This document shows, piece after piece, positions 23,752 to 46,265 of a DNA stretch of 51,296 nucleotides. The translations under genes and the position numbers were made by a program. Every line of letters begins with the position of its first letter. Position 1 is the stretch's first letter. The stretch comes from an uncultured Pelagibacteraceae bacterium. GTDB lineage: Bacteria; Pseudomonadota; Alphaproteobacteria; Pelagibacterales; Pelagibacteraceae. The DNA lies in contig CACLZS010000008.1 in assembly GCA_902611465.1 (NCBI GenBank), positions 1 to 51,296 of the forward strand, read 5' to 3'. Under the pieces are notes generated by a model. It ran no database searches. It was given only the letters and a program-made list of their open reading frames with translations, and was not told the DNA's origin.

Positions 23752-23828
<77 letters not shown>

Positions 23829-39825: not shown

Positions 39826-39928
39826 CTATTTTAAGTATTTATAATTTAATGGTGCAACTTATAGGTGATATTAAAAAATAAATACCAAATATTGTATATT
39901 AATCAAAAAATGTTGATATTAAAAGTTT

Positions 39929-40204
39929 TTAGAGCAAAATACCCTCTAATTTAAGTAGTTTTCTCTTAGTATTTATCCCACCTTTGCCAGAATAACCACC
40001 TAGAGAACCATCTGACCGTATTACTCTGTGACAGGGTATTTTTGGTGCATAAGGATTTTTTCCTATAGCATTTGCCACAGCTCTTATTGCTTTAGGTTTT
40101 TTAATTGCTTTTGCAACCTGAGAATAGGTTCTTAATTGTCCTTTTGGAATTGTTTTTAAATATTTCCAAACCTTTATTTGAAATTTTGTGCCTCTAAGGA
40201 TCAT
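39929..40204 (-). CDS. MGMT-family (methylated-DNA-cysteine methyltransferase) C-terminal domain protein
   Basis: From the ATG at 40204 the protein is 91 residues: GTKFQIKVWKYLKTIPKG, TYSQVAKAIKKPKAIRAVANAIGKNP, the active site IPCHRVIRSDG with acceptor Cys, and GGYSGKGGINTKRKLLKLEG. This is the DNA-binding and alkyl-acceptor domain of Ada/Ogt without the N-terminal domain, as in short MGMT-like proteins. The Cys is kept, so it may really repair O6-alkylguanine. The frame stays open upstream to 40297, but that part lies in the GC-rich RNA candidate and does not resemble protein. Confidence 0.85.
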   Translation of the reverse strand: MILRGTKFQIKVWKYLKTIPKGQLRTYSQVAKAIKKPKAIRAVANAIGKNPYAPKIPCHRVIRSDGSLGGYSGKGGINTKRKLLKLEGILL

Positions 40205-40480
40205 AAAGGATAAAACCCTGTTTCCTTGCACCTTTTCAGGCACAAAGAACAGTAGTTTTTGGCACGTCGTTGTATGCGCTACCGCCATGCCTTCCACCCT
40301 ACAATTTTAGCGCTACTCTGCAGAGCTTTCTGCCCTCTAGGCTTGAACCTCTCGGTTTTTCCCTAGCTGGTCAGTTAAGAGTTGCCTCTTAATTCATTTT
40401 AAACAATATCAGATAGAGTAGGTTGTATGTATCACTTTATCGTTGAATTTACTGAGTTTTTAACAGGGACGAATAGTGGG
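40205..40480 (-). ncRNA. Candidate structured RNA of unknown family
   Basis: On the minus strand, 40261-40380 is about 52% GC in an AT-rich genome. Pairings seen: TTAAGAG-GCAA-CTCTTAA (40392-40375); a hairpin of CTAGG/CCTAG and AACC/GGTT around a GAGA loop (40366-40337); GCAGA-AAGC-TCTGC (40333-40320). All three are enclosed by CTACTCT (40421-40415) with AGAGTAG (40319-40313). An outer helix pairs CCCTGTT (40468-40462) with AACAGGG (40222-40216). UUGUGCC-UGAAAA-GGUGCAA (40245-40226) needs two G-U pairs, so the minus strand is the RNA. No RNase P, tmRNA, SRP or 6S core motif was recognised. Confidence 0.6.
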
Positions 40481-40499
40481 GATAACTTAATTTAAAGCT

Positions 40500-40973
40500 T
40501 TAAGTAAACCATCTAAAACCCTCATACATTGCAATTCCGTAAATTGAGTGTCTGATTAGAAACATAATTGATGTTTTAATGGGTATTCCTGTCTTATTTG
40601 CAAACATGCCCTGTCCTGTAAATGGTAAAAATATCAATAATGGAGCTAATGTTGTAAGAGCTCCGAATATAAAGCCTGAAAAATATGTCATTTTTAGACC
40701 AACTGTTAAAAAACAAAAATAATAGATAACAGCCCAACAAATCGATACATAATAGTGAAAAATCCAGCCAAGTAAGACCTCATATCTAAAATTTGGCATT
40801 TGGGCAATATTTGGGTTATAAAAACTAGCATTTTTAAGCATATAGTAAGTCCATCTTCCAACAATTCCCCAAGATGGTTCTGGAATACCTATCAATTTTA
40901 GTAAATAACCTAGAATATCAAGTATTATGCACGAAAATATTCCAGCAACTAAAATACTAATTATATCTATCAA
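40500..40973 (-). CDS. DUF2938-family membrane protein
   Basis: The 157-residue protein has four hydrophobic segments: DIISILVAGIFSCIILDILGY near the N-terminus, WIFHYYVSICWAVIYYFCFL near 70-90, FIFGALTTLAPLLIFLPFTG near 101-120, and a C-terminal SIMFLIRHSIYGIAMYEGF. Elements such as WGIVGRWTYYML, LLGWIFHYYVS, PFTGQGMFA and RHSIYG match the DUF2938 family of small inner-membrane proteins of unknown function. The start codon is TTG (40973); no in-frame ATG is available nearby. It follows a 54-codon membrane protein by 6 bases. Confidence 0.8.
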   Translation of the reverse strand: MIDIISILVAGIFSCIILDILGYLLKLIGIPEPSWGIVGRWTYYMLKNASFYNPNIAQMPNFRYEVLLGWIFHYYVSICWAVIYYFCFLTVGLKMTYFSGFIFGALTTLAPLLIFLPFTGQGMFANKTGIPIKTSIMFLIRHSIYGIAMYEGFRWFT

Positions 40974-41226: not shown

Positions 41227-42144
41227 ATGAATGATATTGTTACAGACATAAAAACTCTTGAATTAGAAACAATTAAAAATCTTAAAAACTCAAAGGCAAA
41301 TAATACAGTTAGAGCTTATGAATCAGACTTTAAGGACTTCTCACTGTTTTGCATTAAGAATGGATTAAAACACCTACCAACTGAGCCAAAAATTTTATCA
41401 CTTTATTTAACACATTTATCAAAAACTAGTAAATTTAGCACTTTAAAGAGACGTATAGCCTCTATTAAAGTAATACACAAAATGAAAGGTCATTATTTAG
41501 ATTCGAATCACCCAATTATAATGGAAAATCTATTAGGAATTAAAAGAGTAAATGGAGCATATCAAAAGTCAAAAAAACCATTATTAATCAATCATTTAAA
41601 AACAATTATTAAAGTAATAGATGAGAAAGAAAAAAATGAAACAAAAAGAATTAGGAACAAATCATTAATTTTATTAGGATTTTCTGGAGGTTTTAGAAGA
41701 TCAGAACTAGTTAATTTAGATTATGATGATTTAGAATTCGTAAATGAGGGTTTAAAAATATTCATTAAAAGGTCCAAAACAGATCAAGCAGGTCAAGGAA
41801 GTATAAAAGCAATCCCCTATTTCAGTAATGAGGAATATTGCCCAGTTATAAAAATAAAAGATTGGATAAGATATCGTAACATTAGAGAGGGTAAAATTTA
41901 TAATATTTCAGATAAATCAGTTTCTCTGACAATTAAAAAGTATGCATCATTAGCAGGATTAGATCCAAATTTATATGGAGGACATAGTTTAAGATCTGGA
42001 TTTGCAACTTCTGCAGCAGAGGCAGGTGCAGAAGAGCGTAATATTATGGCTATGACTGGACATAAAACTACTCAGATGGTTAGAAGATACATTCAAGAAG
42101 CAAACTTGTTTAAAAATAATGCATTAAATAAGATAAAAATTTAA
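41227..42144 (+). CDS. Tyrosine recombinase / phage-type integrase
   Basis: The 305-residue protein has an N-terminal SAM-like core-binding domain (about 20-105, NTVRAYESDFKDFSLFCIKNG) and a catalytic domain with the full set of active-site residues: R in GGFRRSELVNLD, K in RSKTDQAG, H-X-X-R in GGHSLRSGFATS, H in MTGHKTTQM and the nucleophile Tyr in VRRYIQEA. It is complete and probably active. It is the only mobility gene seen in the 39.4-47.5 kb island; no attachment site or tRNA target was found next to it. Confidence 0.93.
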   Translation: MNDIVTDIKTLELETIKNLKNSKANNTVRAYESDFKDFSLFCIKNGLKHLPTEPKILSLYLTHLSKTSKFSTLKRRIASIKVIHKMKGHYLDSNHPIIMENLLGIKRVNGAYQKSKKPLLINHLKTIIKVIDEKEKNETKRIRNKSLILLGFSGGFRRSELVNLDYDDLEFVNEGLKIFIKRSKTDQAGQGSIKAIPYFSNEEYCPVIKIKDWIRYRNIREGKIYNISDKSVSLTIKKYASLAGLDPNLYGGHSLRSGFATSAAEAGAEERNIMAMTGHKTTQMVRRYIQEANLFKNNALNKIKI

Positions 42145-43166
42145 ATATTTTTAATAATTTTTCTAGTCGCTTTTTTTATATCACTGTTTAAAAAAGAAAA
42201 ACCAAAGTGCATGCCTGTGCACCATTCAGAGTAACTAATTTTTTCATGAATAATATCGTCTTTTTTAAGTATTTTAAAATTAAACAAATTGTGACATTTT
42301 TTTTTAAGAAAAAAAGAAACATGGCTATACAAACCTTCCTTTCCAAGATTCATTATAGACTCATTCAAAACATAAAATAGATTTTCAGAATTAATATTTT
42401 TTAAATAATATATATTTGGATTCTTTTGGTTTTGATTTTTTGCTTTAATTGTAAAATCAATTACAGAATAATTTTTGATAAAATATTCATTATAATTATT
42501 AGTTTTTTTATTATTTTCAATATCTGAAGAAAATAGAATATATTTATATTTTTTACTTAATTGAGAAATGAGATAATCAAACTCATCAATACCCCACCCT
42601 AGCTGTTCAAAAAAAAGGTATCTAAATTGAAACAAAATATATTTATTGGGTAATAAATTTTTTAAACTTTTTGTAATTTTAGGTACAAACAAAGCATTAT
42701 GATTAGTATCTAAGACAATATCATCATCTAACAAATCATTTTGTAATTGACGATAGCTTTTTTGATTAATTTTATTTCTATAAATAACCTTATATTTAAA
42801 TAGATAGTTTCTAAGATAATTAGAGGGTCGAGATCTCTCAAATCCATCATAAACTATTGCATAAAATTTAATATTTCTAAAAATAAAAGGTAAGATAAAA
42901 TAAAAACTTTTTGGAGTTAAAATATAAATTTTTTTATAATCATTAACTAAAATATCATAAAAAATTGAAAATTTATCACTTAAAGATAAGTTAAAATTCA
43001 CTTTATTAATTTTTTTACCTTTAAAAAAAAAAGAAAAGCCAGAGTTTAATTCAGACAAATATATTTTTATGTCTTTATATCTATGAATTAGTGAAGAAAT
43101 TAAAGTTAGGGAAGTAAACAAATCACCAGCTCTATCATTTTTTAATATTAAAATTTTATCACTCAT
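42141..43166 (-). CDS. Glycosyltransferase family 9-like protein
   Basis: The 341-residue protein begins ILILKNDRAGDLFTSLTLISSLIHRY, the N-terminal pattern of heptosyltransferase-type GT9 enzymes (ILKxxRxGDL...). The C-terminal half contains YILFSSDIENN and NSENLFYVLNESIMNLGKEGLYSHVSFFLKKK, where GT9 enzymes have the ADP-sugar site, here much diverged. It would add a sugar to a lipopolysaccharide core or similar surface glycan in the cytoplasm. Its start overlaps the end of the next gene upstream by 8 bases, in a three-gene glycosyltransferase operon. Confidence 0.75.
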   Translation of the reverse strand: MSDKILILKNDRAGDLFTSLTLISSLIHRYKDIKIYLSELNSGFSFFFKGKKINKVNFNLSLSDKFSIFYDILVNDYKKIYILTPKSFYFILPFIFRNIKFYAIVYDGFERSRPSNYLRNYLFKYKVIYRNKINQKSYRQLQNDLLDDDIVLDTNHNALFVPKITKSLKNLLPNKYILFQFRYLFFEQLGWGIDEFDYLISQLSKKYKYILFSSDIENNKKTNNYNEYFIKNYSVIDFTIKAKNQNQKNPNIYYLKNINSENLFYVLNESIMNLGKEGLYSHVSFFLKKKCHNLFNFKILKKDDIIHEKISYSEWCTGMHFGFSFLNSDIKKATRKIIKNI

Positions 43167-44148
43167 TAATCTTAATAATTTTTAAAAAATTTTTTGTTGC
43201 ATTAAACCATGTTTTTTGACCTCTTTTAGATAACAGATTATTTCTAAAAGTTAGCCACAATTCATTATTAGAAAAAATTTCAATTATATAGTCACTAAAT
43301 TGTTTTTTATTTTTTGCAATTAAACCTGTGATATTGTGCTCAACTCTTTCAGATAGAGATCCAATACCCATTGTAACTATAGGTATACATAATTCTTGTG
43401 CTTCTGATGCAGCAAGACAGTATAATTCTGCTTTATGTCCAGGCAATAGAATAACTCTTGATTTTACTAATTGATTAATAAATTCATTTTTATCAACAAA
43501 ATTTCTATTAAAAATTCCAAATTTTTCTAGATTATTATTGACTGGAGTTACATAAAGTTTTAATTCATTATTTTTTGTAATGATGTTTGATTTCCAAACA
43601 TCTATTAATAAATCTAAATTTCTATCTGTTCTTGACGTAAACATTGCTAAATTATTTTCAATATTATTTTCAACAGTTTTATCAAGAAAAGCTTTATCTA
43701 AACCATAGTCTATTGTTTTAGTTCCATAAATAGAAAATAATTTTGACATTTTTGATTCATGATATTTTCCAAGCAATAAATAAATGGGCTTATTTTTAAA
43801 ATATGACTTAAATTGTTTTTTTCTAATAAACTTTTCGATATTTTGTAGACTATGAGATATTACGTATTTTTTTGTTGAATTTATTTTATCAAGCAATCTT
43901 GTATCATTATTTGATATTGCTATATCAAAATAAATATTATTATAATCAATTCTTTTAATATTTAACCATGAATAATTTATAGATTTATATTCATTTGAAC
44001 AATTGTTAAAAACTACAACCTCATGACCTAGCTCACTAATACCTAATGATAAATTAATTAAGATATTTTCAGCACCCCGTATGAAAGGTTTATTAATATC
44101 TTGATAATTATACTGAAATTCTGTTTTATCAATAAAACATACTTTCAT
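43159..44148 (-). CDS. Glycosyltransferase family 4-like protein
   Basis: The 329-residue protein has a GT-B pattern: an N-terminal GAENILINLSLGISELGHEVVVFNNCS, a central LAMFTSRTDRNLDLLIDVW, and in the C-terminal domain ILLPGHKAELYCLAASEAQELCIPIVTMGIGSLSERVEHNITGLIAKNK. The E-x(7)-E stretch and the following G-G/S-E-V element are typical of GT4 (donor-binding domain). Likely role: surface polysaccharide assembly. It lies between the GT9-like and the two-domain transferase genes on one strand. Confidence 0.8.
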   Translation of the reverse strand: MKVCFIDKTEFQYNYQDINKPFIRGAENILINLSLGISELGHEVVVFNNCSNEYKSINYSWLNIKRIDYNNIYFDIAISNNDTRLLDKINSTKKYVISHSLQNIEKFIRKKQFKSYFKNKPIYLLLGKYHESKMSKLFSIYGTKTIDYGLDKAFLDKTVENNIENNLAMFTSRTDRNLDLLIDVWKSNIITKNNELKLYVTPVNNNLEKFGIFNRNFVDKNEFINQLVKSRVILLPGHKAELYCLAASEAQELCIPIVTMGIGSLSERVEHNITGLIAKNKKQFSDYIIEIFSNNELWLTFRNNLLSKRGQKTWFNATKNFLKIIKINE

Positions 44149-44150
44149 AG

Positions 44151-46265
44151 CTAATTTTCCCAGTAAAATTTAGACTTAATAGCTAATGTTTTTTCAATAA
44201 TAAATTGTGCTACCTTGTTTGAATTAAAATATTTGTGATATTTCAAACTACCTTTCTTAGAAATTTTACGTCTTAATTTATCATCTTTTTTATATTTATA
44301 AATTTTTTCAGAAAGATCATCTAAATCATTATAAAATATCATTTCATCTTTTTTAAAGAAGTCATTGTAACAAGTTTTTTTATCAATAAATGTAAGGAGT
44401 CCGTTCCCCATTAGTTGAGCAAGTCTATCGCTACTATAATATTTAGTTGGTTTACCTCTACTTAGATTTAGACCCATTTTCGATTTTGCAAGTTCATTTA
44501 GAAAATTATCTCCCCATATTGGTTGCTTTCCAAACATGCCATATGTATCAATTTTTATGTCTTTACATTTGTTTTTTAATTTACTAATAAAAACTTCTCT
44601 TTCATCTTTTTTTCCAGTTCTTAATACTCCCCTATGAACACCATGGCTAATTGCGTAGAAAATATCATTATGTGGTGTTTGGTTATAATTTTGTAGATTA
44701 TCTAGAGATTTATCACATGGATTTGGCATAAAGTGAGAATTTTTAATTTTGAAGTCTAAAGCGCTTGGACTTGTTGTTGTAAATGTGCAGTCCATTGCGT
44801 CTATTTTATTAAGTATTCTGGATTTATTCCTCATATAGTCAGGACCTTGATGTGATAAAGGATCTAGAAACCACTGAGAAACTCTTAGATTTTTAAATTT
44901 TTCTTTAGAATCTATTAACATTTCATTTTCGACTCTATCAGCATGACCAAGAATTAATAAATCAGGCTTGAAATTATTAATTGTCTGTGAAACCAAATTA
45001 TTTAGGTATTTAGAGCCAGTGGGATCTTTAAAAGATTTTGATATATTTATTAAATCTCTATCAGATATGCTGATTACATTATGTCCAAGTCTTATTAATC
45101 CATTATTAAGTCTGATACCCGTATTGTATTGTAGTCTTCCATAATATCTTTGATTAAAATTAGTTATGTGAATAATTTTTAACTTACTATTTTTATTGAT
45201 GTTAAATTTGTTGATTTTACTATCAGCTGAGATCTTTGATCTAGCCTTATCTATAATATCTGAAACATATTCATGAGTAAGATAAAATGATTCATAATTT
45301 AATTTTTGAAATTTAGATCTTTGTTTTGGTGAATTTATAAGTTTTTTTATTTCTATGTATAAGGAATTTGAATCTAGTTTTTTTAATAAAATTGGATGTT
45401 TGGTAGTTTCTGGTAATCCACCTCTTTCAGTAATTATTGTAGCACAAGCCATGCTTGAAGCCTCTAGGCTAGATCTACCAAAAGGTTCTTCCCACCTTGA
45501 ACAGGCTATAAATATACTGGTATACTTCAGAGTATTTAACACATATGAATTTTCTTTAAAGTTTAAGACTTTAAGATTCTTGTGTCTAAACACATGTCTC
45601 TCTCTAGGTTCATCACCTATTACAATAGATTTCCAATTCGGGTATTCATTAAGAATTTTTAGAACTGCGTTACCAAATATGTCATAACCCTTTGCGGTAT
45701 TAAGCTTACCTACAAATGAAATAATATTTTTTTTTCTATTTATATTAACTTTATTTTTTTTTGTAGATTGGTAACAAATACCAAATCTTGAAATATATTT
45801 ATTTTCATCAATGTTGGTAAAAAATTTATTTTTAGTCCAATGGCTATTAAAAAAAATATAATCGCATCTATCTAACAATTCTAACCTGTCTGACAAAGTT
45901 TTTGAACCTGACAGAGTCAATGGGTTATTATGAAAATAAAGCATAATATTTGATTTTAGATTTTCAGAAATAGCTTTTACATATGATGGCCTGTTATGTA
46001 TTTCTATAAGATCTTGTTGTATTCTTTTATTAGTTTCAATAAATTTTTCCAAATATTTTTTATTATTACTAGAAAATAAACTTTTATTAATTTTAATATT
46101 AGAAAAGTTTTTTGATAAATATTTTTTTTTTAAGGTGTTGCCAAAAACAGTAGTTGTTTTTTTATATTTGGAATATTTAATTAGATTTGAAACATGAATT
46201 GATACAGCGCCTGAATATTTTGGTGTATAATCTTCTTTATAAGGTAATAAAATTGCGATTTTCAT
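44151..46265 (-). CDS. Two-domain glycosyltransferase (GT4 plus CgeB-like domain)
   Basis: The 704-residue protein appears to join two GT-B enzymes. Residues about 1-345 form a GT4 unit: SGAVSIHVSNLIKYSKYKK, FVGKLNTAKGYDIFGNAV and WEEPFGRSSLEASSMACATIITERGGLPE. Residues about 365-704 match CgeB-type (glycosyl transferase group 1, DUF3880-like) proteins: IIHITNFNQRYYGRLQYNTGI, FMPNPCD, YGMFGKQPIWGDNFLNELAKSKMGLNLSRG and SSDRLAQLMGNGLLTFIDKK. It could add two sugars in turn. It starts the leftward three-gene glycosyltransferase run; a GIY-YIG gene ends 1 base upstream. Confidence 0.8.
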   Translation of the reverse strand: MKIAILLPYKEDYTPKYSGAVSIHVSNLIKYSKYKKTTTVFGNTLKKKYLSKNFSNIKINKSLFSSNNKKYLEKFIETNKRIQQDLIEIHNRPSYVKAISENLKSNIMLYFHNNPLTLSGSKTLSDRLELLDRCDYIFFNSHWTKNKFFTNIDENKYISRFGICYQSTKKNKVNINRKKNIISFVGKLNTAKGYDIFGNAVLKILNEYPNWKSIVIGDEPRERHVFRHKNLKVLNFKENSYVLNTLKYTSIFIACSRWEEPFGRSSLEASSMACATIITERGGLPETTKHPILLKKLDSNSLYIEIKKLINSPKQRSKFQKLNYESFYLTHEYVSDIIDKARSKISADSKINKFNINKNSKLKIIHITNFNQRYYGRLQYNTGIRLNNGLIRLGHNVISISDRDLINISKSFKDPTGSKYLNNLVSQTINNFKPDLLILGHADRVENEMLIDSKEKFKNLRVSQWFLDPLSHQGPDYMRNKSRILNKIDAMDCTFTTTSPSALDFKIKNSHFMPNPCDKSLDNLQNYNQTPHNDIFYAISHGVHRGVLRTGKKDEREVFISKLKNKCKDIKIDTYGMFGKQPIWGDNFLNELAKSKMGLNLSRGKPTKYYSSDRLAQLMGNGLLTFIDKKTCYNDFFKKDEMIFYNDLDDLSEKIYKYKKDDKLRRKISKKGSLKYHKYFNSNKVAQFIIEKTLAIKSKFYWEN

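Follow-up and report, generated by a model that had tools for sequence, protein, structure and literature searches.

In this 51,296-nt stretch of DNA (hereafter the window, meaning the whole stretch analysed), the GC-rich patch is the locus of an IMES-2 RNA, present as a single copy in a SAR11 (Pelagibacteraceae) bacterium; its four hairpins are conserved, and a hairpin resembling a terminator follows them. When the whole window was scanned with cmscan, the minus strand from 40399 to 40259 gave a full-length match to IMES-2 (Rfam RF02035; 160 bits, E-value: 3.4e-42, cut-off 54.7) that spans all model positions 1-141 and keeps the consensus structure. The model ends before the terminator-like hairpin that is present at the locus. 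The initial annotation had described an RNA with no recognised family, and this is refuted by the match, which is the outcome of a cmscan check that the annotation itself had proposed; the IMES-2 family is already known. In the scan, IMES-2 and four tRNAs (five matches in all) were alone in reaching gathering scores in the window, with no match of 40259-40399 to the RNase P, tmRNA or SRP RNA models at these scores. A permissive Rfam scan of 39900-40900 returned nothing credible besides IMES-2 (a snoRNA appeared at an E-value of 0.71), and 6S RNA (RF00013) had no match on the same stretch even at E-values up to 5.

The source genome, which is 80% complete, carries one IMES-2 copy. The family was discovered by metagenomics (Nature, 2009) and is reportedly of marine origin and highly abundant in sea-water RNA; we know of no explanation of its function since then. 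The best explanation of the locus as a whole, which we consider about evenly balanced between right and wrong, is an IMES-2 gene with a kissing-loop 3' domain, producing a trans-acting, protein-binding RNA of ~190 nt. The features of the locus and its immediate surroundings are:

40259-40399, minus strand: IMES-2 RNA (RF02035), model positions 1-141, from the 160-bit cmscan match
40375-40392, minus strand: hairpin 1, 7 bp with a GCAA tetraloop (Rfam structure; 100% of cells paired in 56 sequences)
40330-40374, minus strand: hairpin 2, long and interrupted by internal loops, its inner stem (40357-40346) capped by GAGA (Rfam structure; 95.9% and 97.0% of cells paired)
40296-40326, minus strand: hairpin 3, with a large loop (Rfam structure; two parts with 88.4% and 75.9% of cells paired)
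40309-40314, minus strand: putative kissing segment of loop 3, AGCGCU (its centre can pair with that of loop 4 in each of the six types)
40261-40291, minus strand: hairpin 4, with a large loop (Rfam structure; 87.3% of cells paired)
40275-40280, minus strand: putative kissing segment of loop 4, AGCGCA (AGCGC pairs with GCGCU of loop 3)
40212-40258, minus strand: predicted intrinsic terminator, a hairpin (-21.2 kcal/mol) and U-run (7 T in the next 10)
40408-40413, minus strand: putative -10-like hexamer TCTGAT, at the aligned position of TATGAT-like hexamers in homologs
40430-40445, minus strand: conserved upstream element CAAC-N6-GTGATA (-35 region), from the conservation of G[ACT]GAT
40477-40485, minus strand: upstream box TTATCCCCA (many homologs have TTATCCACA and a second half box)
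39929-40204, minus strand: MGMT-domain gene (PF01035), outside the RNA unit, with the start at 40204 being our choice

The patch had first attracted attention through its base composition, and 40261-40380 does stand out at 52.5% GC, compared with 28.0% in the window. This value is reached in five of 5118 sliding 120-bp segments, namely 40261-40380 itself and four that overlap tRNA-Pro (23752-23828). On the minus strand, the 199-nt stretch 40404-40206 has a folding energy of -68.6 kcal/mol (z -4.5), lower than that of any of 200 shuffles, and the whole interval of the initial annotation (40205-40480) folds at -79.6 kcal/mol (z -3.2). The GNRA-capped hairpins proposed there were found, with GCAA on hairpin 1 and GAGA on hairpin 2 (of the 56 aligned homologs, 50 and 48, respectively, have GNRA at these places), and it is hairpin 3 that uses the G-U pairs on the minus strand that had been noted for one hairpin.

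Two perfect 7-bp helices had also been proposed to enclose these hairpins. Both complementarities exist as letters, but the closing of the RNA by them was not confirmed. The upstream arm of the first (40421-40415) sits in the putative promoter region, between GTGATA (40435-40430) and TCTGAT (40413-40408), and its sequence, CTACTCT, is found upstream at just two of the 89 loci with upstream DNA, that of the window (L001) and L007. The second helix has its upstream arm (40468-40462) still farther from the RNA, and the partner of that arm (40222-40216) belongs to the 3' arm of the terminator hairpin, with which this helix would compete. Any perfect 7-bp match between the corresponding stretches was seen in 12 of 89 loci for the first helix and 15 of 88 for the second. 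Neither helix forms as described in the fold of the whole interval, where 40421-40415 pairs with 40300-40294 and 40468-40462 pairs locally or not at all. An extent of ~250 nt is likewise not supported. The predicted gene is ~190 nt long, and the upstream arms of both helices fall outside its probable ends.

Homologous loci were extracted for 90 of the 98 matches among 147 sampled genomes of the family; the eight matches not extracted were those in G004, G024, G044, G106, G110, G118, G132 and G138. One locus (L062) is without upstream DNA, so that upstream counts refer to 89 loci, and for another (L068), where a k-mer check was borderline, the strand was kept as given by the family-genome search. 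G[ACT]GAT occurs 45-25 nt before the model start in all 89 loci (exact AGTGAT in 71), a CAAC-N-GTGATA element sits at about -45 to -30 and a TATGAT-like hexamer at about -14. Most loci also have, at about -85 to -60, a TTATCCACA-like box, which is often joined by a second half box roughly one helical turn farther along; TTATCCMC is present in 61 of the 89 upstream regions, compared with 0.024 per kb elsewhere in the same loci, and looser forms are present in the rest. Upstream elements of similar kinds accompany IMES-2 across several genomic contexts. Downstream, a terminator-like hairpin (-10 kcal/mol or lower) followed by a U-run is found in 88 of 89 loci and in none of 88 control segments placed 300 nt further on (L059, which ends with its contig, was excluded). 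From the upstream elements and the terminator-like hairpin we infer the transcript ends: transcription would start near 40399 and stop near 40211, giving a trans-acting RNA of ~190 nt. By these signals IMES-2 looks like a free-standing gene of that length with its own promoter-like and stop signals.

Because TTATCCACA is what we take to be the canonical DnaA box, a link to the replication origin or terminus was considered and rejected. The GC skew (20 sampled 20-kb stretches) placed IMES-2 near the skew maximum (terminus-like) in G043 but ~100-170 kb from the skew minimum in G022, and across five genomes TTATCCACA was neither clustered nor commoner than a reversed control. For these reasons the box is treated simply as an upstream element. 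A promoter type in common with rRNA was also discarded: TTATCCMC and AGTGAT are both absent from the 700 nt before 16S at six loci (L131-L136) of the seven fetched, where a half-box-like TTCACAG occurs once in two of the six regions. The same fate befell the idea of another RNA behind the same promoter in genomes lacking IMES-2. Across 20 genomes, of which five carry IMES-2 and 15 do not, a promoter pattern that finds 57 of the 89 known sites, and so misses about a third, gave 22 matches as opposed to 35 for its reversed control. Four of the six matches in the five carriers are the IMES-2 promoters, and the second half box is absent from all 16 matches in the 15 non-carriers, as read by eye.

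That a structured RNA lies on the minus strand, as first proposed, is strongly supported by double changes in each helix together with the minus-strand match to RF02035. In an alignment of 56 of the 90 sequences, hand-picked for diversity, the Rfam structure with the kissing pairs added has 92.0% of its cells paired, compared with 31-43% for slid versions. Double changes were observed in 424 cells (kissing pairs included) versus 118.5 after shuffling, and none of 500 shuffles was as high. Four of the seven pairs of hairpin 1 have changes on both sides, and one of the nine pair positions of hairpin 4 is never standard.

Covariation also supports a kissing interaction in which loops 3 and 4 would pair with each other. 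Both loops carry an AGNNCU-type segment with covarying centres, which are complementary in all 90 copies (84 distinct sequences). Six loop-pair types were seen (CG/CG in 63 copies, CA/UG in 11, UA/UA in nine, UG/CA in four, UU/AA in two and AA/UU in one), and any two of them differ in both loops. By parsimony the type changed 12 times on a weakly resolved quick tree of the neighbouring mnmA-like protein (64 loci), a number that exchange of 3' halves (see below) may inflate, and nine times on an RNA tree built without the kissing columns; the well-supported branches of the protein tree alone force three changes for CG/CG and three for UA/UA. Taken by themselves, the six kissing pairs have 35 double-change cells versus 9.3 when shuffled, a count reached by none of 500 shuffles, and their covariation score, 0.300 versus 0.126, lies above all slides. 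Shuffles matched or surpassed the two pair positions with double changes and the four further pair types in 498 of 500 cases, and 35 of the 56 rows leave the outermost pair open. A second alignment of 73 distinct rows was made with a model without kissing pairs, using named genome records found by one 21-base pattern, the genomes being partly shared with the first. In this alignment, the inner four pairs hold in all 70 distinct rows with letters there, and the next pair out is G-C in 57, U-A in two and not standard in 11. The L222 row, in which loop 3 is altered and loop 4 missing, was set aside; this copy (L222:263-381) has lost most of hairpin 4 and is perhaps a decaying gene.

With loops 3 and 4 paired, the 3' half would fold as a compact kissing-hairpin domain. 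Being palindromic, the AGCGCU loops could join two RNA molecules as well. The Rfam model lacks the kissing pairs in its structure line; since a covariance model is unable to hold such pairs, they may already be drawn on the Rfam page or in the 2009 paper.

We suggest that IMES-2 acts as a protein-binding regulatory RNA (a decoy or scaffold) for which the 3' kissing domain would be the protein-binding platform, a proposal whose chances we place slightly below even. Protein binding is favoured because hairpins 1 and 2 are mostly GNRA-capped and loops 3 and 4 are tied together, leaving no widely conserved free antisense seed. In the alignment, divergent members included, unpaired runs with 90% identity or more extend to 3 nt (AAA) at most, the kissing pairs left aside. 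This argues against an antisense small RNA that represses or activates mRNAs through loops 3 and 4 or the linkers, with the kissing form as its closed, inactive state, and the variation of loop letters between lineages with mutual pairing kept would be odd for a conserved mRNA target. A single-copy gene with its own upstream elements and terminator-like hairpin and no fixed neighbour would nevertheless suit an antisense RNA, as would the nearly invariant GUAG of loop 4; moreover, longer stretches are common to closer relatives, and mRNAs could still be paired by weakly conserved segments or by loops 3 and 4 in an open state. On balance we regard antisense action as rather unlikely. The compact fold, the loop-loop contact and the conserved loop letters might also be expected of a catalytic or ligand-binding RNA acting in trans, but catalysis is rare among small RNAs with such a patchy distribution, and such a role is quite doubtful here.

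IMES-2 is present once per genome in 98 of the 147 sampled family genomes; among the 53 with a completeness of 90% or more, 31 carry it. Class-wide it was found in two of 289 sampled genomes, both Pelagibacteraceae, and a model built here from the extracted sequences matches 54 of 147 order-level genomes, a sample that overlaps the family one. Of the 80 genome records listed, from at least 119 found, 79 have a model match (truncated in two), and the titles of these 79 name Pelagibacteraceae, Pelagibacter or Pelagibacterales. The eightieth, a Clostridia bin with the 21-base pattern, has no model match and was dismissed as chance; carriage by viruses was set aside after a narrow test, with no exact match to one 21-base pattern in viral contigs. 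When 20 non-matching genomes were searched again with our own model at E-values up to 1, none matched and two positive controls did, a match to be expected as both controls belong to that model. A far more divergent homolog in those 20 genomes is possible. Because some near-complete relatives have no recognisable copy, IMES-2 seems dispensable.

In two genomes of two genera, sequence comparison suggests that the 3' half has been exchanged between genera. L061 (genus code g2) and L052 (g4) are closest to their own genus in upstream DNA and 5' half (0.86 and 0.85 identity to the best match, respectively); the 3' half and terminator are closest to L060 of g3 in the case of L061 (0.81) and to L061 in the case of L052 (0.79). 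To the four loci nearest by 5' half, these 3' halves have 0.43-0.48 identity. There is some chance that this chimerism arose by assembly error in single genomes, but the pattern is seen in two genomes of two genera.

By sequence IMES-2 is not a 6S RNA. Could it be a functional stand-in, an abundant RNA that binds RNA polymerase? Both are free-standing RNA genes of <200 nt, and the 2009 discovery paper reportedly found IMES RNAs to be highly abundant in sea water. Furthermore, an Rfam search for RF00013 with stricter filters was negative in all 147 family genomes, and the same search finds 6S RNA in Caulobacter. Against this, IMES-2 has four hairpins and 6S RNA is one long bubbled rod, 39900-40900 is without any 6S signal at E-values up to 5, and the 20 genomes that lacked IMES-2 on re-search are also without a detected 6S RNA. 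We therefore hold the stand-in role to be improbable. There is a similarly small chance that IMES-2 is a two-part SAR11-specific RNA, in which an exchangeable 3' kissing module that confers specificity would be swapped between genera on a constant 5' half; the target would be a global protein, for instance RNA polymerase, the lineage having no recognisable 6S RNA.

The present analysis identified the upstream elements, the terminator, the empty sites and the exchange of halves. No description of them was found in the accessible parts of the literature on IMES RNAs and on SAR11 small or 6S RNA (including PMC2704228, PMC5069720 and PMC6429828), and the accessible part of PMC6429828 has no occurrence of IMES. 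With IMES-2 assigned to a defined SAR11 locus that has a terminator, upstream elements and kissing loops, and with naturally empty sites in relatives, experiments can start from concrete points: the predicted transcript ends, compensatory mutants of the loops, and paired relatives of which one carries the gene and the other lacks it.

The nearest upstream gene belongs in 64 loci to one cluster (C1), presumably mnmA-like by its sequence, and in 61 loci the next downstream gene is of one convergent family (C0); the remaining loci adjoin other genes. The MGMT-domain gene follows IMES-2 in 16 of the 88 loci with a downstream gene, the window included, with a phage-integrase-family gene nearby. The position upstream of this gene, to which the initial annotation drew attention, seems coincidental, since the next gene faces IMES-2 in 67 of the 88 loci. 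A cis-acting leader or riboswitch of the MGMT-domain gene would account for the co-oriented arrangement seen in those 16 loci. This reading is unlikely because of the 67 convergent genes, where a riboswitch would call for a constant co-oriented gene, and because a terminator-like hairpin intervenes between IMES-2 and the gene; in addition, relatives retain the MGMT-domain gene without IMES-2. It is already largely refuted, and we give it hardly any weight.

Ten genomes that lack IMES-2 were searched for both neighbours, and seven of them, which belong to the window's genus, keep relatives of the MGMT-domain and integrase genes close together, spaced by ~265 bp in G003 and ~700-1250 bp in the other six. 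The two genes are far apart in G005, G002 has no integrase match and G012 has neither. IMES-2 is absent from the stretches before the MGMT-domain gene that were inspected in these relatives. As the two genes are kept without it, IMES-2 was lost or gained independently of its neighbours. In the window, the phage-integrase-family gene (PF00589) lies at 41227-42144, beside IMES-2, and in relatives of the same genus it stays close to the MGMT-domain gene whether IMES-2 is there or not. Long ORFs extend beyond it (42141-46265), and gene direction and GC skew switch near 42 kb. Just upstream of IMES-2, on the minus strand at 40500-40973, is a DUF2938 membrane protein gene (PF11158), in place of which several relatives have another small ORF.
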